Shown here in pieces: positions 1-60,047 of a stretch of DNA of 64,000 bases. Below the pieces are notes generated by a model. The model did not search any database, had not been told where the DNA came from, and saw only the letters and a program-made list of their open reading frames with translations. Source of the DNA: a virus; IMG/VR virus record IMGVR_UViG_3300042452_000950, positions 1 to 64,000 of that record, one strand, 5' to 3'. Each line of letters begins with the position of its first letter. Position 1 is the first letter of the stretch. The translations under genes and the position numbers were made by a program.

Positions 1-3000
1 TTTATTTTCCGATCATCGGAATCGTTCTTCTCGTCAACTACTGCCGCTGTTCCGTTCTTAAATAACAATGACGCTAACCGTGTGCTTATGGGTGACAAGC
101 ACATTGAGCAGGCCGTCAATCTTAAAGACCCTGACCGTCCGTTGGTCATGCATGCTCTGTCCGTTCCGGGTAAAGAAAAAATCGGTAAGGGTTACGAAGA
201 GATTTTCAATACCGGATTCCATCAGTATGCCCAAGCGCCGGTGGACGGGAAAGTTACAAAAGTAACTAAAGATGCAATAACGGTCAAGCCGACAAAGGGA
301 GCCGCGGTTGACATTCCAATCCACAACAATTACCCGCTTAACTCAAATGCTTTTTTCACCGATACCCCGCTCGTAAATGTTGGGGATAAGGTTAAGGCAG
401 GACAACAGTTAGCTAACAATAACTTCTTCAAAGACGGCGCGCTGGCTATTGGTAAAAATCTACGTGTCGCTTACACGGCATATAAGGGATACAACTTTGA
501 AGACGGTGTGGTTATTTCAGAAGGTGCCGCCAAGAAACTCACCTCCATTCATAAGCACGAGCTTCGTGTTGAGGTCGATAAGAACGTAAAGGTTGGGGCA
601 GATACTTACGTCGCCCAGTTCCCTGAAGAATTGAAGTACATGTCTGACCGTAAGACCCGTTACGACAACGAAGGGATTATCAAGAAAGGTCAGATGCTGA
701 ATCCCGGAGACATCGCTATTCCGGCTTTCCAGTTAATACCATTACACGCCGAGTTCGACTACTCCCGCTTAGGAAGAAAGTTCCAAAATAGAGCTGTTGA
801 CCTCGCACAACGTTGGGACGGATTAGAGCCCGCAGAAGTTGTGGATGTTGTAAAAACTAAGCAGTTCGTTAAGGTGATTTTACGAACTGAGGAACCGATG
901 AAGATTGGCGACAAGATCTCGGTTCGTCACGGCGCTAAGGGTATTGTTGTGCACATTGTTCCTGATAAGGAGATGTACAAGGACGAGACGGGAAATACCA
1001 TCGACGTATTACTCAATCCTATGGGAGTTCCCGGCCGTGTTAACACCGGCCAACTTTATGAGGCTGCGGCTGGTAAGCTCGCTGACAAAACTGGCAAGCC
1101 GTACTACGTAAAGAACTTCGATCCCAATGTCCCGTCTGTTCTACAAAAACTGAAGGACGATCTAAAATCCGCTAATGTAAAAGATGCGGAAGATATCATT
1201 GACCCTAAGACTGGAGAAAAAATTGAGAATACTCTAGTCGGCTTGACGCACGTTTATAAGTTACGCCACCAGGTAGACACCAAATTCAAGGCGCGCTCAA
1301 CTGTAGATGAAGCCTACACTGTTGACGAGCAGCCAGCTAAGACGACCGATTCGTCAGCCCAGAAGGTTGGCGTTCTTGATACGTTCTCGTTACTGTCGGG
1401 AAATGCCGTCGGTTTCCTCAGCGACGCTTTCGGTATTAAATCTCAGAAGAACGACGACTACTGGATTGCATTACAAAAAGGCCAAATGACGCCACCTCCC
1501 AAGGTGCCTTTCATTACCGAGAAATTTGTCTCGATGTTGCTGGGCGCAGGCATAAACCTACGTCAATCTGGATCTAAGATCACCGCGGCGCCATTAACCG
1601 ACAAAGAGATATTAGGACTATCTAAGGGTGAGATAGATAAGCCATTAGTTGTCAAATCTCTGGACCTAATGCCTGAGAAGGGCGGCTTGTTCGATCCAGT
1701 TAAGACGGGAGGAATCACTGGCAAGTGGTTTAATCACATCCAATTAGCTGAGCCGATCGCCAATCCGTTGATGTTCTCTGCCATAGTATCTGTCGCTAAG
1801 TTACCTACAGCGACCGCTCTAAAAGAAATCATTGCTGGTAACCTTGCTGTCACTGAAACTGGTCAGGTTACCAAAGAATTGGATAAAGGAAAAACATGTG
1901 GTCAGGGTGTTCAAAATCTTCTAAAGAACATCGATGTCGCAACTGAAATGAAGAAAACGGAAGCCGAGACAAAGGTCGCTAAAGGTGATCGGCTTGATAA
2001 GGCTTACAAGAGACTTCGCTATCTCAAGGCTTTAGATAATCTTAAGTTAACACCTTCAGAAGCTTACATAAACAATTATGTCCCGATCATTCCGGCCAGA
2101 TTCCGCCGAGTTGATCCGAGGATGGACGGAACGTTATCGGTAGCTCCTGCCAACCACAGCTACCGCGAGATCATTATGATTAACAACCAGCTTAAGGATC
2201 TTAAGCAGGCCGGTGTTAGTCAGGCCAACCTAAAGAATCTTAACCGAGATCTATATGCGTCCGTCAGTGGACTAACTGGATTGACCTCGCCACTAACACG
2301 AACTGAAGAAGTGGCAGGTTTCCTGGAGCGTGTTGCTGGACCATCTGCGCCGAAGACTGGATTTTTCCAGGCTAGGGTCATGTCACGAGCTCAAGACCTA
2401 TCTGCGCGCTCGACGGTTATCCCAAATCCTAAACTAAATCTTGATCAGATCGGATTGCCGAAAGAAATGGCGATGACGATCTACAAGCCGTTTGTTGTGA
2501 AACGTCTTGTTACCTCAGGTTATGATCCTGTGCGCGCAAGAGATCTAGCAGAAAAACGAGACGATCTAGCGATGCGTATGCTGGAACTTGAAGTGCAAGA
2601 GCGACCAGCGATTATGACGCGTGCTCCGTCGTTGCATAAGTTCAACCTTCAGGCGTTCATTCCAAAACTAATTGACGGTAGGGCGGTCGAGGTGAATCCG
2701 CTAATCGTGGCTGGTTACAACATGGATTTCGACGGCGACACCGCTGGTATCCATGTTCCTGTATCTGAAGAAGCCAGAAGAGAAGCAATTGATAAGATGC
2801 TTCCTAGTAAAAATCTACTGGAAGTACGCCGAGACGCTTTGATGCACGCTCCGTCAAGAGAGACGACCCACGGTATTTATCTAATGACCACACCGAAGGG
2901 TGAGCCAGTTGCCTTCCCTAACAAGGAGGCAGCGATGGCAGCGTATTCTGCGAAGAAAATTAAAGTGAACCAGGCTATCAAGATTGGTACCGCTGTGCAG

Positions 3001-4668
3001 TGTGTGGGACAGTATCTATTTGATTCGCTGTTACCGCAACAACTCAAGGTCGGTGCAGTTCCTGTTAACGCTAAAAAGCTCGACGAGGTACTTTTAAGAG
3101 TTTCTAAGGAACTCAAGTCTGATCAGGCAGCCGACTTAATTTCAAAGGTCAAGGATCTCGGAAACCACTACGTCACTGAGGTAGGTTTCAGCATTTCGTT
3201 GGATGACCTAGAAATTGATCGCAAGAAACGCGATCAGTTGTTGGCGCAAGCTAAGAAAGACATTCCAGTCAAGGGATTCGCTCCTGTCGCGAACAATCTT
3301 GTGAAGGATGTGGCCGGATTAGTAGCGTCACACACTGATAATCGATTTGTTGATCTCGCGTTTGTTTCCGGCGCTCTTGGTAAGCGTGGAGATGTTGCGC
3401 GTCTAGTCGCAACGCCTGTTGCCGTAGAAGACCACAAAGGAAGAGTGGTCCCGATCCTTATCGAGAAATCTTACGCTGAGGGACATGACATCGGATCGTA
3501 CATGGCAGCGACTCCCGGCGCTAGAAAAGGCATGATAGATAAGGGTCTGACCGTAGCCGACACCGGCTACTTCAACCGCCGAGTTGTTAACTCCGCAATT
3601 GAATACAAAGTAATCATGCCCGATTGCGGTACGTCGCTCGGCGTTAAGATGCCGCTAACATCATCAGAAATTTATGACAGATTTGGTGTATCCGCGGAGC
3701 TTAAGGATAAGTTGATCACGCCTGAACTCGCAAGACAATTGCTAGCTAAGGGCAAAACCGATATTGTTGTGCGATCTCCTTTAACATGTCAGGCTGCGGG
3801 TGGAGTATGCGCTAAATGTTTCGGACTTACCGAAAACGGTCAGTTGGCTCCTATCGGTCTTCATATTGGAGCACTAGCAGGTCAAACAGTCGGAGAACGT
3901 GCCACGCAAATCACCCTCAAGAGTTTCCATTCAGGCGGGGCAATCGGAGGCGCGAAGATCGGATTTGATCGTATCTCTGAACTAGTTGAGATGCCGCAGA
4001 ACGTCAAAAATAAAGCCACGCTCGCCTCTGTTGCAGGAAAAATTACTAAGATTGAGCAGTCCCCAACTGGTGGTTGGTATGTAACAGTAGACAAAACTAG
4101 ACACTTCGTTCCCCAAGAGTTGGGACTAGGTGTTAGCTCTGGACAGACTGTTCAAGCAGGAGAGCAGCTGAGCAAGAGCGGATCAATTAAGCCACAAGAA
4201 CTTTTAGAGTACACTGGAAGCGTTAACCGTGTCCGTGATTACCTAGTTGACGAGTTGGCAAAGAATTACAGCAAGGAACAGGGCGCTTACGTCAAACGTA
4301 AACTAATTGAAACGATTGTTAGACCTCTAACCGATAAGGCGACTGTAACTGATCCAGGAGACGCCGGTGCTAAGTTCGGAGTTTACCCCGGAGATCTTCT
4401 CCAGATCAACGCGATCAAGGATATGAACCGCAAATTGCGAGAAACCGGCAAGAAAGAGATTCAGTTCAATCCGACACTTTACGGTATCAACTCTGCTCCG
4501 TTTACAAGCGGTGATTTTGTTGGAATGCTGATTCACGAAAGACTCAAGGACCAACTATCTAAAGCGCCCGCACTCGCGCTTTCGACTGATTTAGAGGTCG
4601 GACATCCAATGGCCAGACTGGCTCTGAAAAACCTTAAGAGCATCGAGGATATCAAGAAAGGTCGTTGA
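1..4668 (+). CDS. Multisubunit RNA polymerase, fused beta-beta' chain (5' partial)
   Basis: Catalytic chain of a bacterial-type DNA-directed RNA polymerase with beta and beta' in one polypeptide. The frame is open from base 1, so the N-terminal part of beta lies outside the window. The beta part shows NNNDANR, YNFEDG, RHGAKG and LNPMGVPGR and ends in GINLR near 1560. Beta' follows within about ten residues (KPLVV, then GLFDPV near 1690). The N-terminal zinc ribbon of beta' is absent: GLFDPV runs almost directly into QLAEPIANP. TRAPSLH, the Mg-binding DFDGD (2725-2739), four cysteines of the second zinc site (codons 3625, 3787, 3808, 3817) and GERATQITLKSFHSGG (trigger-loop region) are all kept, so the chain should be active. 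The stop overlaps the next start (TGATG). Fused chains are known in a few bacteria such as Helicobacter; the phage context is inferred from every neighbour. Confidence 0.95.
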   Translation, partial: FIFRSSESFFSSTTAAVPFLNNNDANRVLMGDKHIEQAVNLKDPDRPLVMHALSVPGKEKIGKGYEEIFNTGFHQYAQAPVDGKVTKVTKDAITVKPTKGAAVDIPIHNNYPLNSNAFFTDTPLVNVGDKVKAGQQLANNNFFKDGALAIGKNLRVAYTAYKGYNFEDGVVISEGAAKKLTSIHKHELRVEVDKNVKVGADTYVAQFPEELKYMSDRKTRYDNEGIIKKGQMLNPGDIAIPAFQLIPLHAEFDYSRLGRKFQNRAVDLAQRWDGLEPAEVVDVVKTKQFVKVILRTEEPMKIGDKISVRHGAKGIVVHIVPDKEMYKDETGNTIDVLLNPMGVPGRVNTGQLYEAAAGKLADKTGKPYYVKNFDPNVPSVLQKLKDDLKSANVKDAEDIIDPKTGEKIENTLVGLTHVYKLRHQVDTKFKARSTVDEAYTVDEQPAKTTDSSAQKVGVLDTFSLLSGNAVGFLSDAFGIKSQKNDDYWIALQKGQMTPPPKVPFITEKFVSMLLGAGINLRQSGSKITAAPLTDKEILGLSKGEIDKPLVVKSLDLMPEKGGLFDPVKTGGITGKWFNHIQLAEPIANPLMFSAIVSVAKLPTATALKEIIAGNLAVTETGQVTKELDKGKTCGQGVQNLLKNIDVATEMKKTEAETKVAKGDRLDKAYKRLRYLKALDNLKLTPSEAYINNYVPIIPARFRRVDPRMDGTLSVAPANHSYREIIMINNQLKDLKQAGVSQANLKNLNRDLYASVSGLTGLTSPLTRTEEVAGFLERVAGPSAPKTGFFQARVMSRAQDLSARSTVIPNPKLNLDQIGLPKEMAMTIYKPFVVKRLVTSGYDPVRARDLAEKRDDLAMRMLELEVQERPAIMTRAPSLHKFNLQAFIPKLIDGRAVEVNPLIVAGYNMDFDGDTAGIHVPVSEEARREAIDKMLPSKNLLEVRRDALMHAPSRETTHGIYLMTTPKGEPVAFPNKEAAMAAYSAKKIKVNQAIKIGTAVQCVGQYLFDSLLPQQLKVGAVPVNAKKLDEVLLRVSKELKSDQAADLISKVKDLGNHYVTEVGFSISLDDLEIDRKKRDQLLAQAKKDIPVKGFAPVANNLVKDVAGLVASHTDNRFVDLAFVSGALGKRGDVARLVATPVAVEDHKGRVVPILIEKSYAEGHDIGSYMAATPGARKGMIDKGLTVADTGYFNRRVVNSAIEYKVIMPDCGTSLGVKMPLTSSEIYDRFGVSAELKDKLITPELARQLLAKGKTDIVVRSPLTCQAAGGVCAKCFGLTENGQLAPIGLHIGALAGQTVGERATQITLKSFHSGGAIGGAKIGFDRISELVEMPQNVKNKATLASVAGKITKIEQSPTGGWYVTVDKTRHFVPQELGLGVSSGQTVQAGEQLSKSGSIKPQELLEYTGSVNRVRDYLVDELAKNYSKEQGAYVKRKLIETIVRPLTDKATVTDPGDAGAKFGVYPGDLLQINAIKDMNRKLRETGKKEIQFNPTLYGINSAPFTSGDFVGMLIHERLKDQLSKAPALALSTDLEVGHPMARLALKNLKSIEDIKKGR

Positions 4669-6194: not shown

Positions 6195-7871
6195 ATGATC
6201 AGAAAATTCAAAGGCGAGTCGTTATTCCTTGAGCGGGAACGTGATTTCTCTAAAACTGCTGCCATCAAGGTTGGAAAAAATCCTGCTGAATGGCCCACAG
6301 AGATAATCGAGATGCTACATGAACAGCATCCGTATTTAGCTGAAAGTAACATCCAGATCAGCATGAAGAAAACTGACGAGGATTCAGGAGCCGGGCTCGG
6401 TAGTATTGTTATTGATGATAAGGCGATGATCCCCCTTGTTATCGAGAATAACAAGGTTGCGTCTTTGGATATGTTCTACGACGGTGATCAGCTCTTCCCG
6501 ATGACTCGGGATAGAATTGAAGCAGTTAGCCGAGGTACTAGCATCGGAAAGCCGGTAACACCTGCCAAGGGAGAAGTTACTGATAGTTCACTCGTCCAAA
6601 GTGTGCATCCTCCGTACGATGGCAAGTACACTTTTGCATCTGATCTTACTTATTCCAAGAAAGACTTTTCAGATGCTATCAGCCGATCGTTCAGCTATCA
6701 AGGCCTAGTTGCCGAACTTTCCAATCCAATCTGGAAAGAAGCGCTAGCGGCTTACATCGGTTCGGATAAGAAGACCGTATCCGAGACTACAAACAAACCT
6801 GCTTTGGTCAAAAAAGCAAGCTCTGTTTACACAGCTCCTAAACACAGTGGTGTCTATGAAGTTGTAACAGAGAAGGGCCCTATGGTCGGTATGTTTGTCA
6901 GCCAACTACAAAAGTTCGCTGAGCATAGTGGGCATAGCGGCTTATTCATCAATACTGCGACAGGGCAGTATTCGAAATTGACAACTGAAGAAGTAGCGGC
7001 GCGTGAAGTAAACCAGTTACCTCAGGTCAAGTTAGCCAACTTATCGGGTAAGGGAGTCTTCGTTGTTCCCGGAGATAAGCACGGCGTAACTGTGACCGAT
7101 CCTATTGAAATCAAATACCGGGACGGTGATCACTACGAGGCCGTCGATGAATACGGAAGAAAGTTCACGCTTTATAAGAGTGCTGAATTTGTCAATATCG
7201 AGGTTGCCGGACGAGTCATTGGTATCCCAGAGCGCTCGGTATTTGTTCCACTGACTGAACAGATTAAGCTTGCCAGCCCAAACTTCCTTGACCGAGGCGG
7301 CAACCGGCTCGAAATTTCGCGGATGGGTGATAAGTACTTTGCCAAAACTGCGGCAGAAATCCCAACTGTGTCCGAGCTTCCTGACGACGGTGCTTACATC
7401 GACGAAATGATCCTGGCTCTTCAGGCCCACTTTAATGTTGCGCCGATCGAGTCTGATTTGCGCAAGTTGGCGAACAAATCTAAGATAAACCTATCTTGGA
7501 CAACCGCTCCTGTAGTTGAAAAGACCGCCGGAAAAACGATTGAGCTATCTCTTACGGAAAAATCAGCGCTAACTAAGGTCGCATCGTACTTCGATGAAAA
7601 GACCTTGCGCATGATTAAGCTCTCTCAAGAGCAAGGTAAGAAAACAGTAGACGCACTTCTCGGACTGAACTTTGTCGGTCCAGAAAACATGCAAAGATTT
7701 GTAGACAAAATTGAAACCATTTCTCAAGCACGGCAGGCTGTGGGCGAGTTACTTCTTGCTTCGAGACTTGGCTTGGATGTTGACCAAATGCCACTTAAGA
7801 CTGCATTCCAAGCACTAGATAAGATCGAGTCCGAGTTACGACAGTTACGTACCATGGAAAGTGCCGTATGA
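6195..7871 (+). CDS. Large unassigned protein of the virion operon
   Basis: 558 residues, ATG preceded by CGGAGA. Not recognised. The middle third is beta-rich (SGVYEVVTEKGPMVGMFVS, GKGVFVVPGDKHGVTV) and the C-terminal 130 residues are helical. At least six K-x-A motifs occur (FSKTAA, VKKASS, LQKFAE, FAKTAA, VEKTAG, LTKVAS), the pattern found through the head-gene block, which suggests a virion or prohead-core protein. It ends 10 bases inside the next gene. It is long enough for a portal, but I see no portal-like features. Confidence 0.75.
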   Translation: MIRKFKGESLFLERERDFSKTAAIKVGKNPAEWPTEIIEMLHEQHPYLAESNIQISMKKTDEDSGAGLGSIVIDDKAMIPLVIENNKVASLDMFYDGDQLFPMTRDRIEAVSRGTSIGKPVTPAKGEVTDSSLVQSVHPPYDGKYTFASDLTYSKKDFSDAISRSFSYQGLVAELSNPIWKEALAAYIGSDKKTVSETTNKPALVKKASSVYTAPKHSGVYEVVTEKGPMVGMFVSQLQKFAEHSGHSGLFINTATGQYSKLTTEEVAAREVNQLPQVKLANLSGKGVFVVPGDKHGVTVTDPIEIKYRDGDHYEAVDEYGRKFTLYKSAEFVNIEVAGRVIGIPERSVFVPLTEQIKLASPNFLDRGGNRLEISRMGDKYFAKTAAEIPTVSELPDDGAYIDEMILALQAHFNVAPIESDLRKLANKSKINLSWTTAPVVEKTAGKTIELSLTEKSALTKVASYFDEKTLRMIKLSQEQGKKTVDALLGLNFVGPENMQRFVDKIETISQARQAVGELLLASRLGLDVDQMPLKTAFQALDKIESELRQLRTMESAV

Positions 7872-8962: not shown

Positions 8963-10798
8963 ATGCTTAATACATTCGGTGGGACGTTAAGTTACTCTAC
9001 GCTAGAGTTATTTGAACAGCTCGTTAAAACTGCTGACCCAGCCCAATTAGACGAGGCGTTTGATTGGGAGGAGTACAATAAGGAAGTAGAGGAACTAGCG
9101 CTTGTCGCGGCAGAGACCGCGCAAAGTACACAGGCAAGGCTTGTTAAAGACGATGAACAGTTAGCGATAACCCACATCTCGAAAATTGTGGGAGGATTCC
9201 TGACAGTAGATGGCCAGCCGTTTTCTTTTGAAGGACGCGAGTACATACGCGGACTGTACGATCTGGTTAAGGAATATCCATCAGGTTGTAGAAATCAGAT
9301 CTGGCACACAGGTCGTCAGGTAGAGAAATCGACTAGCCAGGCAGCTAAATCAATCGCTTTGGGAATAGCTGTTCCTGCTTATAAAACACTGTACATCACG
9401 CCACGGTTTGACCAGGTGACTGTATTTTCGCAGCAGCGCTTCAAACCAATGTGCGAAGATTCTAAAAAAATAGTAGGACGTTGGGTTAAGCCATCTGAGT
9501 GTCTATGGCAAGTAGGCGCCAAGCAATTCGCTAACGGCAGCTTTTACAATTTCAGGTCCTGCTATTTGACCGCAGACAACTCGCGTGGTATTTCGGCCAA
9601 TCACCTATTGATTGACGAAATCCAGGACATCCTCTCAGAAAATATCCCAATCGTTGAACAGTGTCAATCGCACTCAAGTGCAGAACTTCGTTTCAGGACG
9701 TACGCCGGTACGCCGAAAACTAATAGCAACGTCATTACGCGACGATATCAAAACTCTTGTCAATTTGAGTGGCTTAGTAAGTGTGGCGCGTGCAACCATT
9801 GGAACTATCTAGACGAGAACGTAATCGGAGCACAATTTTTTGAGTGTGTACGTTGCCATCGAGAGATCGACCCTAAAAATGGACAATGGGTTCCTGCTCG
9901 GCCAGAGCTCCTCGATAAGTGCTGGGGTTTCCGTATTCCCCAGATTATGGTACCGTTCAAATCTCACAAAGACATCAAAGAGCTCCGAGACGATCCACAG
10001 ACATCTAGACGACAATTCTACAACGAGTGTTTAGGCCTGCCTTATGATGAAGGCGAACTTGTCTTAACTGAGAAAGACATGGTTGAGGCAGCCGCTGAAG
10101 GTGACGGTAATGAGATGTGGAGCGCGGCGCAGTCCTATGGTTTGTTCCGAAGAGGAGTTCCAGTATTCGCCGGCATTGATTATGGAACAGCTGAAGGAAC
10201 AACACCATCTTACACGGTCATAACGATCGGATTCATGAACGCGTACGAGAAGTTCCAGGTTATTTACATGGAGAAACTTCTTGGAGAGAGGGCCAACCTA
10301 GCCAAACAGCCCCACTATCTGAACAGCTTGATGCGAGCGTATGGAGTCAGATGGGTTGGCGCTGACTGGGGATTTGGTGCACCGATTAACCAACGACTGA
10401 TTGAAGAGTTTGGCTGGTCTCGCGCAAATGCGCACCATGTGCTCATGGAGTTCCAGTACGTCAAACAAAAAAACAAAGCCAACTGGAGCAGCAAGGCTTC
10501 TCGTTACATGCTTGATCGTAATCAATCAATGAACGACATGATCGACGCGATTAGGAACAAAAAGATAGTATTCTTCAAATTTGATGAGCTACGTCCATTT
10601 GTCCTAGACTTTACGACTATCTACATCGAATTCGACGATTACCACGGGAACATGCGATACGACCATCAAATGCCAGATGACTGTTTTCATTCTCTGAACT
10701 ACGCGTTCTCGGCAGCTAAACAGTATTACGGTAAACTGACTCCCAAGTTGTTGCCGGATGTTAACGATGAAGAAAATAACGAATACGATATGATGTAA
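8963..10798 (+). CDS. terL: Large terminase subunit (DNA-packaging ATPase/nuclease)
   Basis: 611 residues. It drives genome packaging at the portal and cuts concatemers. Walker A is GRQVEKST (about residues 116-123), Walker B and catalytic acid are LLIDEIQD (about 214-221), and the RNase H-like nuclease domain starts with GIDYGT (about 404) and closes with the acidic MPDDCFHSL near the C-terminus. Between ATPase and nuclease sits a CxxC...CxxC zinc finger (CGACNHW about 274, CVRC about 295), a feature known from gpA-type terminases. Length is normal. The last structural gene before the strand switch at 10.8 kb. Confidence 0.92.
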   Translation: MLNTFGGTLSYSTLELFEQLVKTADPAQLDEAFDWEEYNKEVEELALVAAETAQSTQARLVKDDEQLAITHISKIVGGFLTVDGQPFSFEGREYIRGLYDLVKEYPSGCRNQIWHTGRQVEKSTSQAAKSIALGIAVPAYKTLYITPRFDQVTVFSQQRFKPMCEDSKKIVGRWVKPSECLWQVGAKQFANGSFYNFRSCYLTADNSRGISANHLLIDEIQDILSENIPIVEQCQSHSSAELRFRTYAGTPKTNSNVITRRYQNSCQFEWLSKCGACNHWNYLDENVIGAQFFECVRCHREIDPKNGQWVPARPELLDKCWGFRIPQIMVPFKSHKDIKELRDDPQTSRRQFYNECLGLPYDEGELVLTEKDMVEAAAEGDGNEMWSAAQSYGLFRRGVPVFAGIDYGTAEGTTPSYTVITIGFMNAYEKFQVIYMEKLLGERANLAKQPHYLNSLMRAYGVRWVGADWGFGAPINQRLIEEFGWSRANAHHVLMEFQYVKQKNKANWSSKASRYMLDRNQSMNDMIDAIRNKKIVFFKFDELRPFVLDFTTIYIEFDDYHGNMRYDHQMPDDCFHSLNYAFSAAKQYYGKLTPKLLPDVNDEENNEYDMM

Positions 10799-11082: not shown

Positions 11083-11131
11083 ATTATTGAGGACCTCACC
11101 GTACCAACGGGCACGGTTCCTCCTCAATAAT
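11083..11131 (-). promoter_or_regulatory. Leader hairpin overlapping promoter start region
   Basis: Perfect 11-base inverted repeat, ATTATTGAGGA (11083-11093) and TCCTCAATAAT (11121-11131), with an inner ACCGT/ACGGT pair. On the minus strand it begins at the downstream edge of the 11126-11164 promoter and fills most of the leader before the AGGAGG site of the 65-residue gene. It may protect or regulate the message. Confidence 0.55.
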
Positions 11132-11164
11132 CTTATGCCATATTTAGGGCAGTTTTGGCTAAAA
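11126..11164 (-). promoter_or_regulatory. Bipartite promoter-like element, copy 1
   Basis: On the minus strand: CTTTTAGCCAAAACTG, 12 bases, then CATAAGATTATT. The same two blocks with the same gap occur at 13086-13124 and 13151-13190. CATAAGAT sits where a -10 box would, but the upstream block does not resemble TTGACA. The block's TTTT overlaps the T-tract of the preceding terminator. Confidence 0.7.
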
Positions 11165-11191
11165 GGAAAGGACCCTTGCGGGCCCTCTCCT
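11164..11191 (-). terminator. Terminator with GCAA loop
   Basis: Twelve-base stem with G-U pairs around a GCAA loop, followed on the minus strand by TTTT. It ends the 11197-11619 transcript and abuts the next promoter-like element, forming a compact terminator-promoter unit. Confidence 0.75.
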
Positions 11192-11196
11192 AACAA

Positions 11197-11619
11197 CTAC
11201 CGGAGCATGCTGTCCCGGAGAAGATCGAGATCCTTTTGCACCTGAATCTCAAATTTCTTCTCGTGCTCCAGATCCTCTGTCTTCTTCCTTCCGTGCCATT
11301 CAGGCATGCCGTGGGACCGAGAACTCACGGCCCGCTTGATTCGTGCCATCTTCTTGTTGTCTGAGATTTCATCGACAACCTGGCAGAATTTTCTGCCGGA
11401 CAGCGGAATCCAGGTTCCGTAAGCAAGCCTGGCCGCGAGCAGAGTCTCGCGCTTGTTCAGCGGGACCTCATTAACCGACGCCCCGTTGACAATGTCGTCC
11501 CGGCGATCGAGCGGGACCAGATATGCGCAGTCTCGGCGCACCCGGACGACCACCCAGTTTGATGCCCCTTTTGCCAGACGCACCACTTCCGCAATGCGGA
11601 ACTCTCTTTTTGTGCTCAT
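11197..11619 (-). CDS. Unassigned basic protein
   Basis: 140 residues. I use the ATG at 11619, which overlaps the stop of the upstream gene (TAATG), so translation is probably coupled; there is no separate binding site. The first 90 residues are beta-like (EVVRLAKGASNWVVVRVRR), and the C-terminal third is a charged helix (EDLEHEKKFEIQVQKDLDLL). Basic overall, possibly nucleic-acid-binding, but not recognised. Confidence 0.65.
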   Translation of the reverse strand: MSTKREFRIAEVVRLAKGASNWVVVRVRRDCAYLVPLDRRDDIVNGASVNEVPLNKRETLLAARLAYGTWIPLSGRKFCQVVDEISDNKKMARIKRAVSSRSHGMPEWHGRKKTEDLEHEKKFEIQVQKDLDLLRDSMLR

Positions 11620-11936
11620 TAGTTTGTTGAAGGATCTGTTACAACCAGATCCGGTTTGTTGAAGTTGCAGAAACATACATCTTGGAGGATGTAATGAACT
11701 CGATCCAATTTTTCTTGGAGCGGCAGATCTGAGAGCTTATCCCAGACACTTTCGATTAGCCGTCCTGTATACCTACCGCGCAGCCACTCGCTGGCAGCCC
11801 ACGCGTTTTCCATGTCATGGCGAGTCAGCCCGCCATTAGCCATCTCGAAAAAGATTTCTGGAGGACTCAGGAATCCTTCCTTGGATGACCAGTACGCAGC
11901 GGTCACCAAAGTAGAGAACATTTGTTTGTCTAGCAT
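11619..11936 (-). CDS. Small unassigned protein
   Basis: 105 residues from the ATG at 11936, chosen over an upstream in-frame start because AAAGGAGGT lies 6 bases before it. The sequence is a mix of helices (MFSTLVTAAYWSSKEGFLS, GRLIESVWDKLSDLPLQEKL). Not recognised. First gene of a two-gene unit with 11197-11619. Confidence 0.7.
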   Translation of the reverse strand: MLDKQMFSTLVTAAYWSSKEGFLSPPEIFFEMANGGLTRHDMENAWAASEWLRGRYTGRLIESVWDKLSDLPLQEKLDRVHYILQDVCFCNFNKPDLVVTDPSTN

Positions 11937-11974
11937 TGTTTTACCTCCTTTGCTAGTAATTTTCTTATGACATA

Positions 11975-12004
11975 AAAGGAAGGGCCCTTGCGGACCCCTC
12001 CTTT
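11975..12004 (-). terminator. Terminator with GCAA loop
   Basis: Thirteen-base stem with two G-U pairs around GCAA, followed by TTTTATG on the minus strand. It overlaps the stop of the 12004-12252 gene and closes the lysis-like cassette. A CATAAGA box follows at once (11964-11971) and could start the next unit. Confidence 0.75.
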
Positions 12005-12252
12005 CATTTTCCACGGAGCCCCTGGAGCTTAGCTTTTTGCTCCAGGAGTTCTTGGCGATGCGTTGTCACAAATCGCTCAAGGATCTCAAGATCCTCCTCC
12101 ATGTCATTGATCACGCTGAGCGTCTGTTCGACGTCCGCGTATTGCTTCGGGGTGTTGGCCCCGATTACCCATCCTGCGACGCTTGAAACGGTGAACATGA
12201 CCACCATCAATACAAGCATCACGAGAGACAGGAAGCATCCTGCCTTTCTCAT
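12004..12252 (-). CDS. One-TM coiled-coil protein, possible inner-membrane spanin or holin
   Basis: 82 residues from the ATG at 12252, which overlaps the kinase stop (ATGA). One strongly hydrophobic helix (about residues 7-31, LSLVMLVLMVVMFTVSS) is followed by a charged coiled-coil tail (VINDMEEDLEILERFVTTHR). That layout fits an inner-membrane spanin, and a single-TM holin is also possible. The cassette with the secreted lysozyme supports a lysis role, but the sequence alone does not prove it. Confidence 0.5.
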   Translation of the reverse strand: MRKAGCFLSLVMLVLMVVMFTVSSVAGWVIGANTPKQYADVEQTLSVINDMEEDLEILERFVTTHRQELLEQKAKLQGLRGK

Positions 12253-12641
12253 TCTTCCCACCTAGCGCGCATGCGCTCAATAGTGGTCTGGGGAACCGAG
12301 TGTACACTCCCGAACATCCCTTTGCAGGTGATTACCTGAGGAATGATCGAGCGCGCCACGCACGCTTCCATGTACGGAAGCATCTCTTTCTGCGTGGTGA
12401 ACGTGTTGCTCACCACGACAAGGTCTTGCTCACCCGACGAGATATCGTGGGTGAACCGCTCAAGGCACTGGCCGTGGGCCTGTGCCAATAGCGCTCCGTC
12501 GAAGTAGCCCAGCTTCTCAAAGAAGTGGTCAGCTTCGTGATTGATCGCCCGCAGGTTCTCTAGGCGAGCCCCGAGGACAATCCTCTTGCCAAGGGTGGTT
12601 TTACCCGACCCCGGCAAGCCTCTGATGAGCACTACTTGCAT
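12249..12641 (-). CDS. Small P-loop kinase (polynucleotide kinase-like)
   Basis: 130 residues. N-terminal Walker A GLPGSGKTT sits right after the first strand (MQVVLIR), followed by HEADHFF and FDGALLAQAHGQCLERF, a pattern seen in the AAA_33/T4 Pnk-like kinase family (N4BP2 type). It is only the kinase domain, with no phosphatase part. The substrate cannot be told. It overlaps the lysozyme gene upstream by 10 bases and the membrane-protein gene downstream by 4, so it is embedded in the lysis-like operon; why a kinase sits there is unclear. Confidence 0.7.
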   Translation of the reverse strand: MQVVLIRGLPGSGKTTLGKRIVLGARLENLRAINHEADHFFEKLGYFDGALLAQAHGQCLERFTHDISSGEQDLVVVSNTFTTQKEMLPYMEACVARSIIPQVITCKGMFGSVHSVPQTTIERMRARWEE

Positions 12642-13063
12642 GAGTAGAACTCACAGTAGAACTGAGTCACATTCTTGACCCAGTTCTTGTTTAACCCGTT
12701 GGGGTCGTTCTCTGCGCCAACAGGGCAGTAACGATTACCCAAGAAGGTGATGAAGTCCACCTTACGGCCTGACTCCACCCAGCGGTCCCAGTTCTTCTGA
12801 ACTGTCGCCGCACACCATCCCGCCTGTTTGCGGTAGGTGTTGGCCTTGGCATTCAAGATGCCAAACTCTTTCCCGGCTCCACCGTTTTCGGCGTACCGGA
12901 TGGCGGCCACGATAGGCCGCAGAATCTCCCGCAACTCGGGACGAATGTTCTCCCGAATTGCTTCCTCGAAGGCGGCGTCCGCCGCCTTGCCGTCCTTTTT
13001 CTCAATGGGCGACTGCCCAAAGAGAGGGAGGACGAGCATCAAAATCATGAGAACTGTTCTCAT
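12632..13063 (-). CDS. Exported lysozyme/transglycosylase-like endolysin
   Basis: 143 residues from the ATG at 13063 (AAGGAGG 7-8 bases upstream). The N-terminus is a signal peptide (MRTVLMILMLVLPLFGQS). The body resembles the lysozyme-like superfamily: AIRYAENGG carries the likely catalytic Glu, followed by EFGIL, WCAATVQKNWDRW and DFITFLGNRYCPVG...NDPNGLN. Four or more cysteines in the mature part could form disulfides, consistent with export. It would cut peptidoglycan at lysis. The family assignment is by pattern only. Confidence 0.6.
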   Translation of the reverse strand: MRTVLMILMLVLPLFGQSPIEKKDGKAADAAFEEAIRENIRPELREILRPIVAAIRYAENGGAGKEFGILNAKANTYRKQAGWCAATVQKNWDRWVESGRKVDFITFLGNRYCPVGAENDPNGLNKNWVKNVTQFYCEFYSCK

Positions 13064-13085
13064 AATGAGAGCCTCCTTGTCTCTC

Positions 13086-13124
13086 AATTATCTTATGCCA
13101 AAAGCTGGTCAGTTATGGCTAAAA
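13086..13124 (-). promoter_or_regulatory. Bipartite promoter-like element, copy 2
   Basis: Minus strand: CTTTTAGCCATAACTG, 12 bases, CATAAGATAATT, placed 20-odd bases before the AAGGAGG site of the endolysin gene. It is the most gene-proximal of three elements in tandem. Confidence 0.75.
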
Positions 13125-13150
13125 GAACGGCCGTTGAAAACGTTTCTACC

Positions 13151-13190
13151 AATAATCTTATGACACATTTATGCCAGTTTTGGCTAAAAG
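13151..13190 (-). promoter_or_regulatory. Bipartite promoter-like element, copy 3
   Basis: Minus strand: CTTTTAGCCAAAACTG, 12 bases, CATAAGATTATT. It lies 65 bases upstream of copy 2 with no gene between them, so the two would form a tandem promoter. Confidence 0.7.
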
Positions 13191-13215
13191 GGAAGGGGGC
13201 CGAAGGGGCCCGCCT
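13187..13215 (-). terminator. GC-rich hairpin with T-tract, probable terminator
   Basis: On the minus strand GGGCC-CCTTC-GGCCC, then CCTTCCCTTTT. The stem is short, but the position matches the other terminator-promoter junctions of this island. There is no gene upstream of it, only a CATAAGAT-like box at 13231-13242. Confidence 0.45.
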
Positions 13216-13230
13216 CGCTGATCTTGATTC

Positions 13231-13242
13231 AATAATCTTATA
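13231..13242 (-). promoter_or_regulatory. Degenerate promoter-like box
   Basis: TATAAGATTATT on the minus strand matches the downstream block of the bipartite element, but the upstream block is not conserved. A transcript from here would meet the hairpin at 13187-13215 within about 50 bases. Confidence 0.4.
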
Positions 13243-13255
13243 CAACAAATATGAC

Positions 13256-15219: not shown

Positions 15220-15465
15220 GTGCAACCTTACCTAGAAACACAGCCGCACTACCAGTCAGACCGTCAGGTTATGACGCACTCCGGATTTGACGGAGGAAAT
15301 CCTCGGATCGATAACAAGATCGCGGATAGAGCTAGGAATGAAGCCCGAAAAGTCCAGCAGGGTTACAATAAAGAAGGTATTCCCGGTCAGTTAATTGCAA
15401 CTGCCGAGAGCGCGTCCGATCCATTTTTTAGTGCATTCCTGAGCGAGATATTAAGAAATGTTTGA
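15220..15465 (+). CDS. Small unassigned protein
   Basis: 81 residues from a GTG at 15220, eight bases after the previous stop. An earlier in-frame start would overlap the upstream gene. Polar and Gln/Asn-rich at the N-terminus (PYLETQPHYQSDRQ), helical later (DRARNEARKVQQGYNKEG). It overlaps the protease start by 8 bases. Not recognised. Confidence 0.6.
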   Translation: MQPYLETQPHYQSDRQVMTHSGFDGGNPRIDNKIADRARNEARKVQQGYNKEGIPGQLIATAESASDPFFSAFLSEILRNV

Positions 15466-16825
15466 AAAATTCTTTGAGTGTGGTGCCTATGACAACTGGG
15501 GTGAGGTATACACCCACATTCATGGTCCAACTATGGACAAGGTCGCCTCTCAGAGTTGCATTCCTGCGTCATTACTAACTGTTATCGAAAAATTGCAGCC
15601 ACGAGCAGAGGGCCGTTACATCCTTCTCAACGCCCTGGGTGCTTACGAATATTGGTCGAGCAACAATAACGGAGACGCCTTTCCGGAGTGGAGCCTCAAA
15701 TCGATGGTTCCACCACCTTCGGTGCAAAGGATTATTGATACCAAGGTTAAAGAGCGTTTGCCGTCTTTCATGGTTCCGCCCTGCACGGAGTATGGAACTG
15801 GCTCGTTTGTTCAGCACGCCAAAGTTTATCAACACCACGTTAACAAAGATCCTTTAATTGCTTGCGGCGATGTTGTAGCGGCAGCCTACAACGATCTCAT
15901 GCACCGGACGGAGCTGATCGTCTTCGTTTACCAGCAACGTGCCCCAGATATTGTAAAACAGATTGATGATGGTATTCCGATCCCCTTTTCGATGGGCGCG
16001 AAACTGCCGTTCGACGTCTGCTCAATCTGCTCAAACGTTGCACGCAATAGGGCAGAATACTGCGACCACCTTAAAAATGAGCTTCGGCAGTTCTATCCTG
16101 ACGGTCGAAAGGTTTTCTCATATAACTATTTCCCACGATTCTTCGACATCTCAAAAGTGTCCGTGCCTGCAGACAAGAGTGCGTGGATGCTCAAAAAGAT
16201 TGCCTCAGCTGAATCAGCAGCGCCTATTCAAAAGGCTGCTCAGATTGAGAAGCGGACAATCACCACAGAGCAACAAGATCTCGGCAGTGCGCCAGTTAAT
16301 CCAAAACTGATCAATTTTATTCGAAACAGCGGGTGGGACGGCGCGTGCAGCGACGAGCCGCTCGATCCTCAGCTAGCTTTGCTCAAAAATCAGTACAGTG
16401 TTAAGGATATCTTGTCCTCAATGCTTACTTTAGGGATGTTGCCGTCGTCATCTGAGATAAATACCTTAACAAATGGTGACGATAGTGCGCTTCCCAGCAG
16501 CCTCGATGTTGTCAATCCAAATCGCAGGCTTATAATGATTTTGAGCAAACACGTTCCAAGTCGCTCTTTGCTTGACCCTTATTTCACTAAGCGTGCTGCT
16601 TATGGAAAGAAGGGCCCAAAGTCTAGTAAGGCACATAAAAAATTTGCCAGCTTGCTAACCAAAGTAAATTATCGTGATTTAGTCAATACAATGGAGCACA
16701 ACCCATCGGTTGCGCTATCATTGAATAGTGACGCTCTGGGGTTAGCACTCTTTAAGAGCGCAAGCACAAAGGAACCTTGTTGGTTACCTTTTATAGTTTG
16801 TTGTTCTATCTACACGGAGTCATAA
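15458..16825 (+). CDS. Putative prohead maturation protease
   Basis: 455 residues. The N-terminal 245 residues resemble head-maturation proteases of large phages: SSNNNGDAFPEW near the start, KVYQHHVNKDPL with a candidate catalytic His, MHRTELIVFV, PIPFSMGAKLPFDVCSICS with a candidate Ser, EYCDHL, then FFDISKVSVPADKSAWMLKK. Two CxxC/C-H groups (CSIC, YCDH) suggest a zinc site. Right after this domain come KKIASAES, IQKAAQ and IEKR, so the tail may be an assembly or self-processing region. It lies upstream of scaffold-like, decoration and capsid genes, the normal order. The protease call is by motif pattern, not alignment. Confidence 0.6.
   Translation: MFEKFFECGAYDNWGEVYTHIHGPTMDKVASQSCIPASLLTVIEKLQPRAEGRYILLNALGAYEYWSSNNNGDAFPEWSLKSMVPPPSVQRIIDTKVKERLPSFMVPPCTEYGTGSFVQHAKVYQHHVNKDPLIACGDVVAAAYNDLMHRTELIVFVYQQRAPDIVKQIDDGIPIPFSMGAKLPFDVCSICSNVARNRAEYCDHLKNELRQFYPDGRKVFSYNYFPRFFDISKVSVPADKSAWMLKKIASAESAAPIQKAAQIEKRTITTEQQDLGSAPVNPKLINFIRNSGWDGACSDEPLDPQLALLKNQYSVKDILSSMLTLGMLPSSSEINTLTNGDDSALPSSLDVVNPNRRLIMILSKHVPSRSLLDPYFTKRAAYGKKGPKSSKAHKKFASLLTKVNYRDLVNTMEHNPSVALSLNSDALGLALFKSASTKEPCWLPFIVCCSIYTES
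16768..16791 (+). terminator. Hairpin at the end of the protease gene, possible attenuator
   Basis: AAAGGAACC and GGTTACCTTT pair with one bulged base around TTGTT, followed by a short T-run and TATAG. It overlaps the last codons of the protease gene and could lower read-through into the downstream small genes. Confidence 0.35.
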
Positions 16826-18880: not shown

Positions 18881-18901
18881 GGACATCAAAAAGGATTGAA
18901 C

Positions 18902-20179
18902 ATGGCAGTTAACATTAATGCTAATGAAATTAATCAGCTTTTTGGTGAAGCCCTGAACCGTGGTGGCGAAGCTCTTGAGAAGGTCGGTGAGGTCACTGGT
19001 CTTTACATTCAGGACAAGCTTCGCGAGAATTCATTCTGCGGAAAGATTCTCCCACCTCAGACTGTCACCGAAGCCGAACTAACCCGTAACGTAAACGATG
19101 AAGGTCTAGTCTACATCGACGACATCGAACCGGACTCACTCGCCATGCGCGTGAACTTCCGTGGCGAGCCTGAGAAGACCTACATCGAAGGCAAGCGTTA
19201 CGAAATCCGCATGAGCACGATTTCTTCGGACAAGTTCCAGAAGTCGGAGCAGGAACTCCGTTCCTACCGCATGCCGATCACGAAGATCATCGAGCAGAAC
19301 ACCGTTAAGGACATTCAGGAGCAGAAGGACAAGACCTTCATGCAACACGTCCGCGCCGGTCTCGTGCTCGCCACCCGCCGTCGTATGAACGACCTCGTTG
19401 ACCGCGGTTTAGTTCGTAACGGTAACCAAGGTGGTACGATCGCTGTGCCGGATAGCTTAAGCGGTACGACAAACAAGAACTTTGGTACGCCTACCCAGTT
19501 CGCTGCTTACCTATACACTCGCCGCATAGAAGCCGGCTACGGTATTGACTCCAACGGTGCTTGGGACGGTGCTTCAGGTGACCCGGCCAACATCGTGGAC
19601 GCCAATTACTCCAACATCATTCTCTCGACAGAGACGAGCTTCACCCGCACGGTTCTCCGTGATGCGGTCAAGGTTCAGGCTGCTCGTGAGATGAAGTGCC
19701 GTTGCTTCCTAATGCACGAGTACGACTGGACCGATACGGTCGGTTGGCTCGACTCGGAAGCCGGTCTCCAGATCACTGGCGAGATCGTTCGCGATGGTTA
19801 CAAGTACACCACTGTCGGTGGCTACACCTTCGTGACGACCGTCCGTGATAACCCCGACATCGTCGAGCCCGGCCAGATCTACACCTTCCCAGCACCCGAG
19901 TTCCTCGGTCGCCACCTTTCGCTGGAAGGCGTCAAGTTCTGGATCAACAAGACGGGTCGCTTCATTGAGATGGAAGCTTGGGAAGAGTGCGGAATTGGCT
20001 TTGGCAACGTCAAGGGCCTCGGCCTCATCCTTCTGAGCGGCGCTGGCGTAACGCTGCCAAAGATCTTCCAAGACGAAGCAGGCGTTGCAATTACTGACGG
20101 CAGCTCTGGAACCTTCCGGTTCACAAACCTACCGCTAGCATCTGGCGGTGACGTGCCAACCACCACGCCGATCAGCTAA
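18902..20179 (+). CDS. Major capsid protein (HK97-fold)
   Basis: 425 residues. I use the ATG at 18902 (AAGGA upstream) rather than a TTG six bases earlier. Helical N-terminal region, an E-loop-like stretch (TYIEGKRYEIRMSTISSDKF), a long spine-type helix region (ITKIIEQNTVKDIQEQKDK) and an A-domain-like end. It has the strongest codon bias of the window and a strong terminator directly behind. Order protease, small acidic proteins, decoration, this gene supports the call. LEKVGEVTG near residue 30 could mark a cleaved propeptide. Confidence 0.75.
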   Translation: MAVNINANEINQLFGEALNRGGEALEKVGEVTGLYIQDKLRENSFCGKILPPQTVTEAELTRNVNDEGLVYIDDIEPDSLAMRVNFRGEPEKTYIEGKRYEIRMSTISSDKFQKSEQELRSYRMPITKIIEQNTVKDIQEQKDKTFMQHVRAGLVLATRRRMNDLVDRGLVRNGNQGGTIAVPDSLSGTTNKNFGTPTQFAAYLYTRRIEAGYGIDSNGAWDGASGDPANIVDANYSNIILSTETSFTRTVLRDAVKVQAAREMKCRCFLMHEYDWTDTVGWLDSEAGLQITGEIVRDGYKYTTVGGYTFVTTVRDNPDIVEPGQIYTFPAPEFLGRHLSLEGVKFWINKTGRFIEMEAWEECGIGFGNVKGLGLILLSGAGVTLPKIFQDEAGVAITDGSSGTFRFTNLPLASGGDVPTTTPIS

Positions 20180-28410: not shown

Positions 28411-28440
28411 AAATAACTAGGGCAGGAGCCCTAGTTATTT
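28411..28440. terminator. Bidirectional terminator between converging operons
   Basis: Perfect 13-base stem AAATAACTAGGGC with a four-base loop, T-rich on both sides. It ends the head-tail operon and the replication operon and overlaps the sigma gene's stop. Confidence 0.9.
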
Positions 28441-29279
28441 TGATTCCGAAATACTGACTCAGATTCAAGCGACTTCATTTTTCTCCACAACATTCGTAAT
28501 CCGGAGTTTTCTAGTTGGCGAATACGCTCTCGGGTGTAGCCGTAAAATTTAGCTAGATCGTCGTACGTCTCAGAAGTTTCATATCCAAGCCCGTAGTGTC
28601 TACGAATGATATCTTCTAATTCCGGGGGAAGTTCATTCAGAGCCGCCTCTAGCTGTTCGTAAGTTTCGCTAGAAATCAGGGACTGAATACCTGCGGCCTC
28701 GTCATCTATGAGAAGGGGATCGTTGTTCAGTACACCGGCTTCCGATGCTGACTCGATCTTTTCTAAAGGTATGATTTGTTTATCTGCGTCATGCAGGAAT
28801 GTAGCTACGGTCTCTCCATCCCAATTAAGCGCACCGAACACTTCTTCCTGCGAAGGAATATGTCCTAAGTCTTCCTTAAGTTTGTTAAACATCGATCGAA
28901 ATTTAACATGCAAGGATTTATGCTGGTGTGCCTTAGGCTGGATGCTGATAATGGTTTTTCGGATCTTCGCTTGAATCCACCAGACAGCATAAGTAGAGAA
29001 CCGGTTGTTCTTCTCAACCTTAAAATCATCAATAGCTTTTAAAAGGCCGAGTGTTCCGGCGGAAACAAGATCCATCGCCTTAGCATCGTTTGAGTCGACA
29101 AACCGTAGAACACAGCTAAGAACAAGGCGCATGTTGTGCACGATAAACTTGTTTTTAGCCGCTTCGTCTCCTGCCTTAATTCTCAGGAGAAGTTGCCGTT
29201 CTTCCTCAGCATTAAAGAGACCCTTGTCGCGGAACTCCTCGTAATAGCGCTGAAAATCGGTTTTGTCTTTATTACTCAT
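28431..29279 (-). CDS. Sigma-70 family RNA polymerase sigma factor
   Basis: 282 residues. Region 1.2/2: EERQLLLRIKAGDEAAKNKF, DLVSAGTLGLLKAIDDF and RFSTYAVWWIQAKIRKTI (about residues 22-112). Region 3 about 120-160 (GHIPSQEEV). Region 4 about 210-275 with ELPPELEDIIRRHYGLG and the DNA-reading helix YTRERIRQLENSGLRMLW. This is a full group 2/3-type sigma, not an ECF type. It would direct core polymerase to phage promoters. It is the last gene of the replication operon and overlaps the gene before it by 4 bases. Confidence 0.93.
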   Translation of the reverse strand: MSNKDKTDFQRYYEEFRDKGLFNAEEERQLLLRIKAGDEAAKNKFIVHNMRLVLSCVLRFVDSNDAKAMDLVSAGTLGLLKAIDDFKVEKNNRFSTYAVWWIQAKIRKTIISIQPKAHQHKSLHVKFRSMFNKLKEDLGHIPSQEEVFGALNWDGETVATFLHDADKQIIPLEKIESASEAGVLNNDPLLIDDEAAGIQSLISSETYEQLEAALNELPPELEDIIRRHYGLGYETSETYDDLAKFYGYTRERIRQLENSGLRMLWRKMKSLESESVFRNQNN

Positions 29280-41748: not shown

Positions 41749-42741
41749 TTATCCTTTTGTTAACTTTGTGAGTTGTTGAGTTGTCAGATTTTTGGGATCA
41801 CAATCTGGTATTACATTTTTGGATTCGATTCCATATTTCGATAGGGCTGTCTGGATTCTTGAGACGGCGCGCTGTCCTTCTGGATCCGGATCCAGCATAA
41901 GAATAACCTGCTGTATTCCGGATTCCAGTAGCCTGAGAGCTTTATTTTCACTCAAAAAGAGACCCATTAGCGCAGCAGCTCTAAACCCTTCTTGGGCAAT
42001 ATGTAAGGCGTCTAGCGGACCTTCAACTAAAATCAGGGTCTGGTCTTTCCTGGTATCGAGCATTTGTTCTCCAAATAAATAGCCGCTGCCTTCGAAAGGC
42101 ATCACCGCGTAGTATTTGGAAAAGCCGTCAGGTGGGTCGATGTACCTGCCTTGAGCGCCGACACACACGTACCTGTCATTTATTTTAGTGAATACTGGCA
42201 GGACTAGGACGTCATGGGGAACCCTTTTAATATCTTTTTGATTCGGTAATATTAGCTCGGTTCCTTTGGGTATAAAACCACAGCCAAACTTAATGGCTGT
42301 CAATAATCTTATGCCCTTTTTTGATAGGAAATTTGCGATACGCTCGTCAGCCGATTCTGTAAGTTTATACTGCTTAACGAGTTGTGAATAGTCAATACGG
42401 TTACGGTATAATTTAGGACCAGGTTTGGTCTCTATTTTTTTAAGGGTTTTGTTCTGCTCCAGTTGTTGCGCTTGGAGGGCTAGGGCGGCAAAACCTCCTA
42501 CCGCTGTATTGAGTTCAAACAGCATATTAACAAATGGCTTTTTGTACCCACAGGAAAAGCAGGTAACAAAGGAGTCGTCATTTCCGTGACTGATCGTCAT
42601 GGATGGTCGACTATCCTTTCCGTTAACGTGCCTGATGGGGGCGACAAGACAAGTGAGACTTAAATGATTACTTCCGGAATTACTTATTCGACCGATTCCA
42701 TCAATCTGTTCTAAGAGGTTACGAAGGTCGTGTTCTTGCAT
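41749..42741 (-). CDS. DNA primase (zinc and TOPRIM domains)
   Basis: 330 residues. An N-terminal CHC2-like zinc module (TCLVAPIRH...CFSCGYK) and a C-terminal TOPRIM domain with LILVEGPLDALHIA (catalytic Glu) and VILMLDPDPEG (DxD). Between them lies a short helical RNA-polymerase-like part. No helicase domain; the DnaB-like helicase is encoded separately at 58 kb. First gene of the long minus-strand replication operon. Confidence 0.85.
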   Translation of the reverse strand: MQEHDLRNLLEQIDGIGRISNSGSNHLSLTCLVAPIRHVNGKDSRPSMTISHGNDDSFVTCFSCGYKKPFVNMLFELNTAVGGFAALALQAQQLEQNKTLKKIETKPGPKLYRNRIDYSQLVKQYKLTESADERIANFLSKKGIRLLTAIKFGCGFIPKGTELILPNQKDIKRVPHDVLVLPVFTKINDRYVCVGAQGRYIDPPDGFSKYYAVMPFEGSGYLFGEQMLDTRKDQTLILVEGPLDALHIAQEGFRAAALMGLFLSENKALRLLESGIQQVILMLDPDPEGQRAVSRIQTALSKYGIESKNVIPDCDPKNLTTQQLTKLTKG

Positions 42742-58128: not shown

Positions 58129-58155
58129 TCCAAACCATTCCCAATAGTCTTATGA

Positions 58156-59520: not shown

Positions 59521-60047
59521 GACTTGAGGGCGTCTTCCAGTTGTTTGTACTGAATAATCGAGGGTAATGTGTCGTGATTAGGTCCGATAACGATTGTGAT
59601 ATTGCGATGTCGCTGTTGACGACTATTGATGATCTTATCCAACTCAGCTCTATGATTACGACAGATTGCTTCTGAGGTATTGTCTGGGATATTTGAAATG
59701 ATCAATACATCTGCGGTTTTGTAACTGGTGAAGATGTCAGTTTCTGTCCAATTACACATGGCAACTTCTCTACCAGGGTTCCTTGGAAACTTTGTGCCAT
59801 CACACCACATGGCGATATCAGCATAGTTGCTAAATGCTTTGACAATCGAAGCTACCTGCTTGATGTCTCTCATGCTATCGATATTGAAAATAGGGATATC
59901 TTTCGCAATCATATATGGAGTTTTTACCAGCTCGATCGGAGCGCACTTAGCGATCAGCTCAATTATCTTTGGCTGAAATCCTGTATCAGTGTTATCGAGC
60001 CAATCCTTAATGGATCTCGACTCGTGAATCGGTTTATCCCATATCAT
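59517..60047 (-). CDS. Possible helicase loader (degenerate AAA+)
   Basis: 176 residues just upstream of and overlapping the helicase. The second half (DVLIISNIPDNTSEAICRNH and ELDKIINSRQQRHRNITIVI) follows the Walker B, sensor and arginine pattern of DnaC/IstB-type ATPases, but there is no Walker A P-loop. A nucleotide-independent loader or remnant is one reading. The call is an inference from gene order and this weak resemblance. Confidence 0.45.
   Translation of the reverse strand: MIWDKPIHESRSIKDWLDNTDTGFQPKIIELIAKCAPIELVKTPYMIAKDIPIFNIDSMRDIKQVASIVKAFSNYADIAMWCDGTKFPRNPGREVAMCNWTETDIFTSYKTADVLIISNIPDNTSEAICRNHRAELDKIINSRQQRHRNITIVIGPNHDTLPSIIQYKQLEDALKS

Follow-up and report, generated by a model that had tools for sequence, protein, structure and literature searches.

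A single-chain beta-beta' RNA polymerase in a phage lineage: a candidate virion-delivered, sigma-dependent early enzyme

Introduction

The assembly of bacterial RNA polymerase begins with the alpha dimer. In RpoB-RpoC proteins of the Helicobacter/Wolbachia type, the C-terminus of beta is joined to the N-terminus of beta' in a chain of about 2,900 aa that keeps the first beta' zinc ribbon (ZBD1) and belongs to the bacterial clade. Among phages, beta and beta' subunits have been described in the mReC lineage, for which the motif NADxDGD was used as a filter (Weinheimer & Aylward 2020, PMC7481178). The main text of that paper mentions fusion for crAssphage alone (PMC7481178); an earlier notice of the fusion reported here is possible.

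Other phage polymerases are more distant. The phiKZ and AR9 enzymes consist of four or more chains, have no sigma homologue and exist in a virion-borne version. According to reviews, phiKZ-type enzymes have neither alpha nor omega and form no stable complex with those of the host (PMC7598289 among them). In gp66 of crAss-like phages and in gp96/gp64 of P23-45, both barrels are in one chain, and P23-45 gp96 is a virion protein; these enzymes and YonO are extremely divergent, and the vRNAP of P23-45 has no clamp and is joined to the tape measure protein.

The cultured Salmonella phage Arash has myovirus morphology (PMC10585845). Mass spectrometry of its virions placed gp206, which the authors name simply subunit beta, first with 3,516 spectra and 128 unique peptides, along with 1,210 spectra for gp216 and 467 for the sigma factor gp10 (PMC10585845). 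The preparation contained 116 proteins, clearly non-structural ones among them, and the authors raise early transcription and carry-over alike (PMC10585845).

Here we analyzed positions 1 to 64,000 of the IMG/VR virus record IMGVR_UViG_3300042452_000950. This stretch, the window, starts at the first base of a 66,456 bp fragment. A preliminary description had seen in its first gene a phage-encoded, cellular-like beta-beta' fusion, which it regarded as an unusual case and perhaps a captured cellular enzyme in a myovirus.

Results

A fused beta-beta' chain at the start of the contig

The polymerase frame is open over 1,555 aa; its 5' end is cut by the contig start with no stop there, and the next frame downstream has a four-base overlap with its stop codon (Table 1). 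Pfam domains follow one another in this one chain in the order Rpb2_6 (aa 82-446, E 2.4e-54), Rpb1_1 (a match under the curated cut-off), Rpb1_2, Rpb1_3 and Rpb1_5, so that beta domains precede beta' domains in a single open frame, as the preliminary description had it. The N-terminal part absent from the window amounts to about 475 aa and is in frame in relatives. The 5' end of the window gene was not recovered, and one related locus (L008) likewise begins within the gene. The contig's right-hand terminus (L002 3040-3457; about 66.0-66.5 kb of the record) consists of a low-complexity repeat, which may be the cause of the assembly stop.

Table 1 Features of the window discussed in the text
Feature	Position	Strand	Evidence
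Single-chain beta-beta' RNA polymerase, C-terminal 1,555 aa of about 2,030	1..4668	+	ORF and Pfam
Beta part, from about the E. coli beta R678 region to the beta C-terminus	1..1569	+	Pfam, alignment
Beta-beta' junction, aa 518-531	1552..1593	+	Alignment, predicted structure
Place of the absent first beta' zinc ribbon: GLFDPVKTGGITGKWFNHIQL	1684..1746	+	Alignment, model
Catalytic motif MDFDGD	2722..2739	+	Alignment, model
Second zinc site, four cysteines equivalent to E. coli C814, C888, C895 and C898	3616..3819	+	Alignment, model
Trigger-loop N-terminal segment TQITLKSFHSGG, with Q929 and H936 equivalents	3904..3939	+	Alignment, model
Homologue of Arash virion protein gp218	6195..7871	+	Comparison with Arash
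Terminase large subunit, homologue of Arash gp1	8963..10798	+	PF05876, Arash comparison
Promoter-like motif KCATAAGAYNATTG	11125..11138	-	Motif scan
Promoter-like motif KCATAAGAYNATTG	13085..13098	-	Motif scan
Promoter-like motif KCATAAGAYNATTG	13150..13163	-	Motif scan
Homologue of Arash virion protein gp222	15458..16825	+	Comparison with Arash
Major capsid protein, homologue of Arash gp226	18896..20179	+	Comparison with Arash
Sigma-70 type factor, regions 2 and 4	28431..29279	-	Pfam, Arash comparison
KCATAAGAYNATTG copy inside primase gene	42301..42314	-	Motif scan
Promoter-like motif upstream of ribonucleotide reductase gene	58142..58155	-	Motif scan

The structure of the junction was predicted with AlphaFold2 in a model built from 34 sequences that covers window residues 231-939 (mean pLDDT 87.2, pTM 0.78). 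In the model, the last beta strand, INLRQS (aa 518-523, nt 1552-1569), leads through a predicted hairpin turn of two residues, Gly-Ser (nt 1570-1575), into the first beta' strand, KITAAP (aa 526-531, nt 1576-1593), and the pLDDT of this hairpin block is 84-95. The junction had been placed near 1560-1590 from the sequence, which is where it lies. The structures nearest to the model are bacterial beta' chains (E 2e-32), with the best viral entry in BFVD behind them (E 1e-27).

The residues of the window polymerase were compared in an alignment with E. coli, 12 other bacteria, 24 fused relatives and four Arash-type relatives. Equivalents of beta R678, E813/D814, K1065, K1073 and R1106, of beta' R425 and of the trigger-loop residues Q929 and H936 are kept, as are the catalytic Asp triad and the cysteines of the second zinc site (nt 3616-3633 and 3781-3819); the trigger-loop sequence TQITLKSFH starts at nt 3904. 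All these residues are practically invariant in the 24 fused relatives, and the Asp triad, both catalytic lysines, the NTP-binding arginine, the second zinc site and the trigger-loop histidine do not vary in the whole set compared. The functional roles named (catalytic lysines, NTP-binding arginine, rifampicin pocket, sigma-2 contacts) are those of the E. coli residues. The ZBD1 cysteines (E. coli beta' C70/C72/C85/C88), on the other hand, have no counterpart in the window, in any of the 24 fused relatives or in any of the four Arash-type ones, all of which show a gap there, and a short GG-containing turn stands where the first zinc ribbon would be. The reported deletion of this ribbon, with DFDGD, the second zinc site and the trigger-loop region intact, is thus borne out and extends to all relatives compared.

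The rifampicin-pocket region is missing from the window and was compared in the relatives that cover it, where S531 is changed to T and H526, Q513 and I572 are replaced in most. Given this altered pocket, the fused polymerases are predicted from sequence to be rifampicin resistant. The clamp residues R275 and E295, which contact sigma region 2 in bacteria, have also diverged in the relatives.

The fusion is the rule in a large phage clade

Searching viral sequences with an alignment of relatives yielded 79 loci, drawn from the 80 top-ranked among at least 493 matches. As such a search favors full-length matches, we added a scan of viral contigs for DNA encoding the active-site NADFDGD plus preceding residues. 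Its 80 loci comprised 47 with a fused frame, 24 that were undecided, their frame running beyond the retrieved sequence, and nine that appeared unfused. Eight of these nine had low scores (about 50-310), and where both of their chains are visible, these are separate as in YerA41/Carin-5. The ninth, L223, is a fused gene whose frame is broken by one TGA codon in the junction. This TGA (around 1027-1031) takes the place of the conserved Trp in the motif NDEYW, shortly before beta ends; we treated it as a mutation or sequencing error, though it may also reflect recoding. Among the fetched IMG/VR loci there were 82 complete fused frames of 2,016-2,953 aa, mostly 2,020-2,200, a count that takes in some contigs twice. 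The gene in relatives is therefore open over its full length, the TGA of L223 excepted, and a layout first taken for an isolated case is shared by dozens of viral contigs.

Several of the fused genes carry intein-like insertions at conserved motifs (TPEG, DFDGD, trigger-loop FH). The insertion sites are near profile positions 776-788 in L003, L016 and L026, near 395 in L010, L031 and L033, near 1381-1387 in L014 and L017, and near 1775 in L017; some insertions match LAGLIDADG_3, Hom_end or Intein_splicing.

Trees were built to place these enzymes relative to bacteria. FastTree, run on 98 phage rows and 39 bacteria, split phages (0.98) from bacteria (1.0). IQ-TREE under LG+G4 and LG+C20 PMSF supported the fused-plus-Arash group at 99, the fused group at 98-99 and bacteria at 99-100; the trees, which cover phages and bacteria, set the phage clade apart from bacteria only. 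The unfused YerA41/Carin-5 enzymes changed position between the IQ-TREE models. The fused enzymes of Helicobacter anseris and of a Bryobacterales genome fell inside bacteria and have ZBD1, by which, on sequence grounds, the phage and bacterial beta-beta' fusions arose independently.

Cultured relatives carry a re-cut chain

In Arash gp206 (1,525 aa) and in Vibrio phage D69, one chain comprises beta and the N-terminal portion of beta', and the remainder of beta' is encoded by a second gene (Arash gp216). These phages and Vibrio phages D148 and D181 share with the window the fused junction and the absence of ZBD1; they differ from it in that beta' is broken into a second gene. The break is at E. 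coli beta' ~552-558, after the active-site barrel. In phiKZ/AR9, too, beta' is split after the barrel domain, and phiKZ-type and cyanobacterial enzymes are broken in the same general region (PMC7598289), the start of AR9 beta'C being placed only approximately in our comparison. In a sister group, a second chain break occurs at profile ~1090, with the pieces in order and the beta-beta' joint still fused. The two polymerase genes are about 4.7 kb apart in Arash, with mostly opposite-strand genes between them (L018 11058-15827), and only about 0.6 kb apart in D69.

One further fused polymerase of 2,329 aa, also without ZBD1 (L222 1904-8890, reverse complement), fell outside the fused-plus-Arash clade in one tree with a support of 0.74. 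Because this support is just 0.74, we only lean toward an order in which the fused chain came first and was re-cut later in one sublineage with the beta-beta' joint kept.

A phage sigma factor is present and alpha and omega are not found

The sigma factor that the preliminary description had located at 28431 is a phage sigma with regions 2 and 4, and its similarity to the Arash virion sigma gp10 is weak (24%, E 1e-4 to 2e-7). Sigma70 region 2 was matched in 14/20 related records, the window included; most of the six without a match are fragments. Alpha (PF01193) and omega (PF01192) gave no match over the cut-off in the 20 records, two of them complete, while the controls were positive. This agrees with the earlier suggestion that the enzyme has lost these partners. 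Since most of the 20 records are fragments, the absence can be taken as firm for Arash and D69 alone, and substitutes too divergent for Pfam may exist.

Structural neighbors link the window to Arash virions

The structural genes of the window have homologues in Arash, for the most part in a matching order and with products detected in the Arash virion. The polymerase gene adjoins the portal gene in Arash and stands among structural genes in the window. Calculated per residue, the Arash spectra are 2.31 for gp206, 2.00 for gp216, 2.00 for sigma, 1.51 for the portal and 4.34 for the capsid; by this crude measure, the data fit near-equal amounts of gp206, gp216 and sigma in the virion. The tail sheath model PF04984 had no match within the window, and the label of myovirus given to it earlier was not confirmed. 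An unexpected gene for a phage encodes a full-length IMP dehydrogenase/GMP reductase domain (PF00478, E 4.8e-70; 60044-61072, minus strand) near genes for a DnaB-like helicase and ribonucleotide reductase.

A promoter-like motif

A de novo motif search of the window alone gave too weak a signal, and the motif was derived from the nearest relative, G001, and then tested in the window. In G001, the sequence CATAAGAY is conspicuous in front of genes and is preceded, about 16-17 nt away, by an A-rich element. The window contains KCATAAGAYNATTG five times as an exact match, always on the minus strand, vs 0 expected from shuffles. For the copy within the primase gene, the match may arise by chance from the coding sequence. 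A cluster of CATAAGAY-N-ATTG (11125-13243, minus strand; three exact and one or two near copies) precedes short minus-strand genes. The bipartite layout is of the kind a sigma factor would read, which makes the motif a candidate promoter; its reader may be this polymerase or the host polymerase with the phage sigma.

Comparison with described polymerases

The window enzyme resembles mReC in several ways. Its beta and beta' parts are alignable with those of cells and recognized by profiles of the cellular subunits (Pfam here, not COG), its clade is separate from bacteria, 65/90 relatives carry NADxDGD, and L245, inside the clade, shares metagenome 3300017989 with two mReC examples. It differs in its own motif, NMDFDGD instead of NADxDGD, and in its terminase, which matches PF05876 (GpA-type) instead of PF03237. 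In the 20 related records, the PF03237 cut-off was passed in five, and the capsid model PF07068 matched none, with the control equally silent; the window capsid is without a Pfam match, Gp23 included. The fused clade probably overlaps the published mReC lineage.

The absence of alpha and omega is shared with phiKZ/AR9 and, as far as examined, with Arash and D69. Judged by sequence, the window polymerase is of none of the phiKZ/AR9, crAss-like and P23-45 kinds: in contrast to the far more divergent phiKZ/AR9 chains it is a single frame accompanied by a sigma gene, and unlike crAss-like, YonO and P23-45 enzymes it is recognized by cellular profiles. As far as the main texts of the literature show, what is new is the lineage-wide single chain, the constant loss of ZBD1, the sigma without alpha or omega and the series of re-cut chains.

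Discussion

We propose that the window polymerase is a virion-delivered, sigma-dependent early polymerase reduced to beta-beta' and sigma, and we put the probability of this at about 0.68. In the proposed mechanism, the last strand of beta is joined to the first strand of beta' by the two-residue hairpin turn in a chain of ~2,030 residues, which would probably take over the assembly role of the alpha dimer and omega and would fold as a bacterial-type core, with no alpha dimer needed to unite beta and beta'. The phage sigma would bind this core and direct it to phage-specific promoters. The complex would be packed in the particle, enter with the DNA, be the first to act and transcribe the early genes, steps read across from Arash and from other virion polymerases (PMC10770324). 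The sequences establish the fusion, the catalytic residues, the lost zinc ribbon, the spread through a separate clade and the sigma gene; packaging, early timing, partnership with sigma, promoter identity and rifampicin resistance are inferred, a virion-borne form being on record in this group for Arash alone. Because Arash virions hold a similar enzyme and their own sigma, these phages probably bring their own transcription machine.

The enzyme might instead be made after infection, as is the nvRNAP of phiKZ/AR9, and serve middle or late transcription; carry-over would then explain why Arash particles contain it. The many non-structural proteins in the Arash preparation and the carry-over option named by its authors speak for such an enzyme, as does the motif upstream of metabolic genes such as that for ribonucleotide reductase. 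The per-residue spectra of gp206, gp216 and sigma nevertheless exceed those of the portal, the gene stands next to the portal gene or among structural genes, and the Rpb1_5 model shows no second polymerase in the window record, itself a fragment; we consider a non-virion enzyme unlikely, if the most serious competitor. A hybrid holoenzyme, in which alpha, omega and/or sigma from the host join the fused core, appears improbable. It would agree with the lack of phage alpha and omega matches and with a modelled fold close to bacterial beta', but the sigma-2 contacts R275 and E295 are not conserved in the clade, most of these phages have a sigma of their own, and the reviews cited above report no stable binding of host alpha or omega by phiKZ-type enzymes.

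We give almost no credence to a recent capture of a bacterial fused rpoB-rpoC of the Helicobacter/Wolbachia type, or to a chimeric contig. Bacterial fusions of like layout exist (L175, L127), yet those of Helicobacter and Bryobacterales differ in ZBD1 and placement, and the window gene lies inside the phage clade with 98-100 support, in no bacterial genome and surrounded by phage genes. Both were rejected on the trees and the phage neighborhood, and a captured cellular enzyme as an isolated event does not describe a gene that belongs to a large phage clade.

Returning to the virion-delivered early polymerase, a broader claim would be that it is the smallest sigma-dependent polymerase of the cellular type known so far, a fused chain plus sigma without alpha and omega that is delivered in the virion, in which fusion replaces alpha-guided assembly and which one sublineage has re-cut while keeping the joint. 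We see the chances of this claim as evenly balanced.

A lineage-wide fusion with sigma and without alpha or omega puts the question of what a minimal sigma-dependent two-barrel polymerase needs within reach of direct tests, with the cultured phage Arash at hand. The occurrence of chains that are fused, cut once and cut twice indicates that subunit borders are fluid in this ancient enzyme. If it is injected, the polymerase would be a cellular-like addition to the virion polymerases, beside the very divergent enzymes of crAss-like phages and P23-45.
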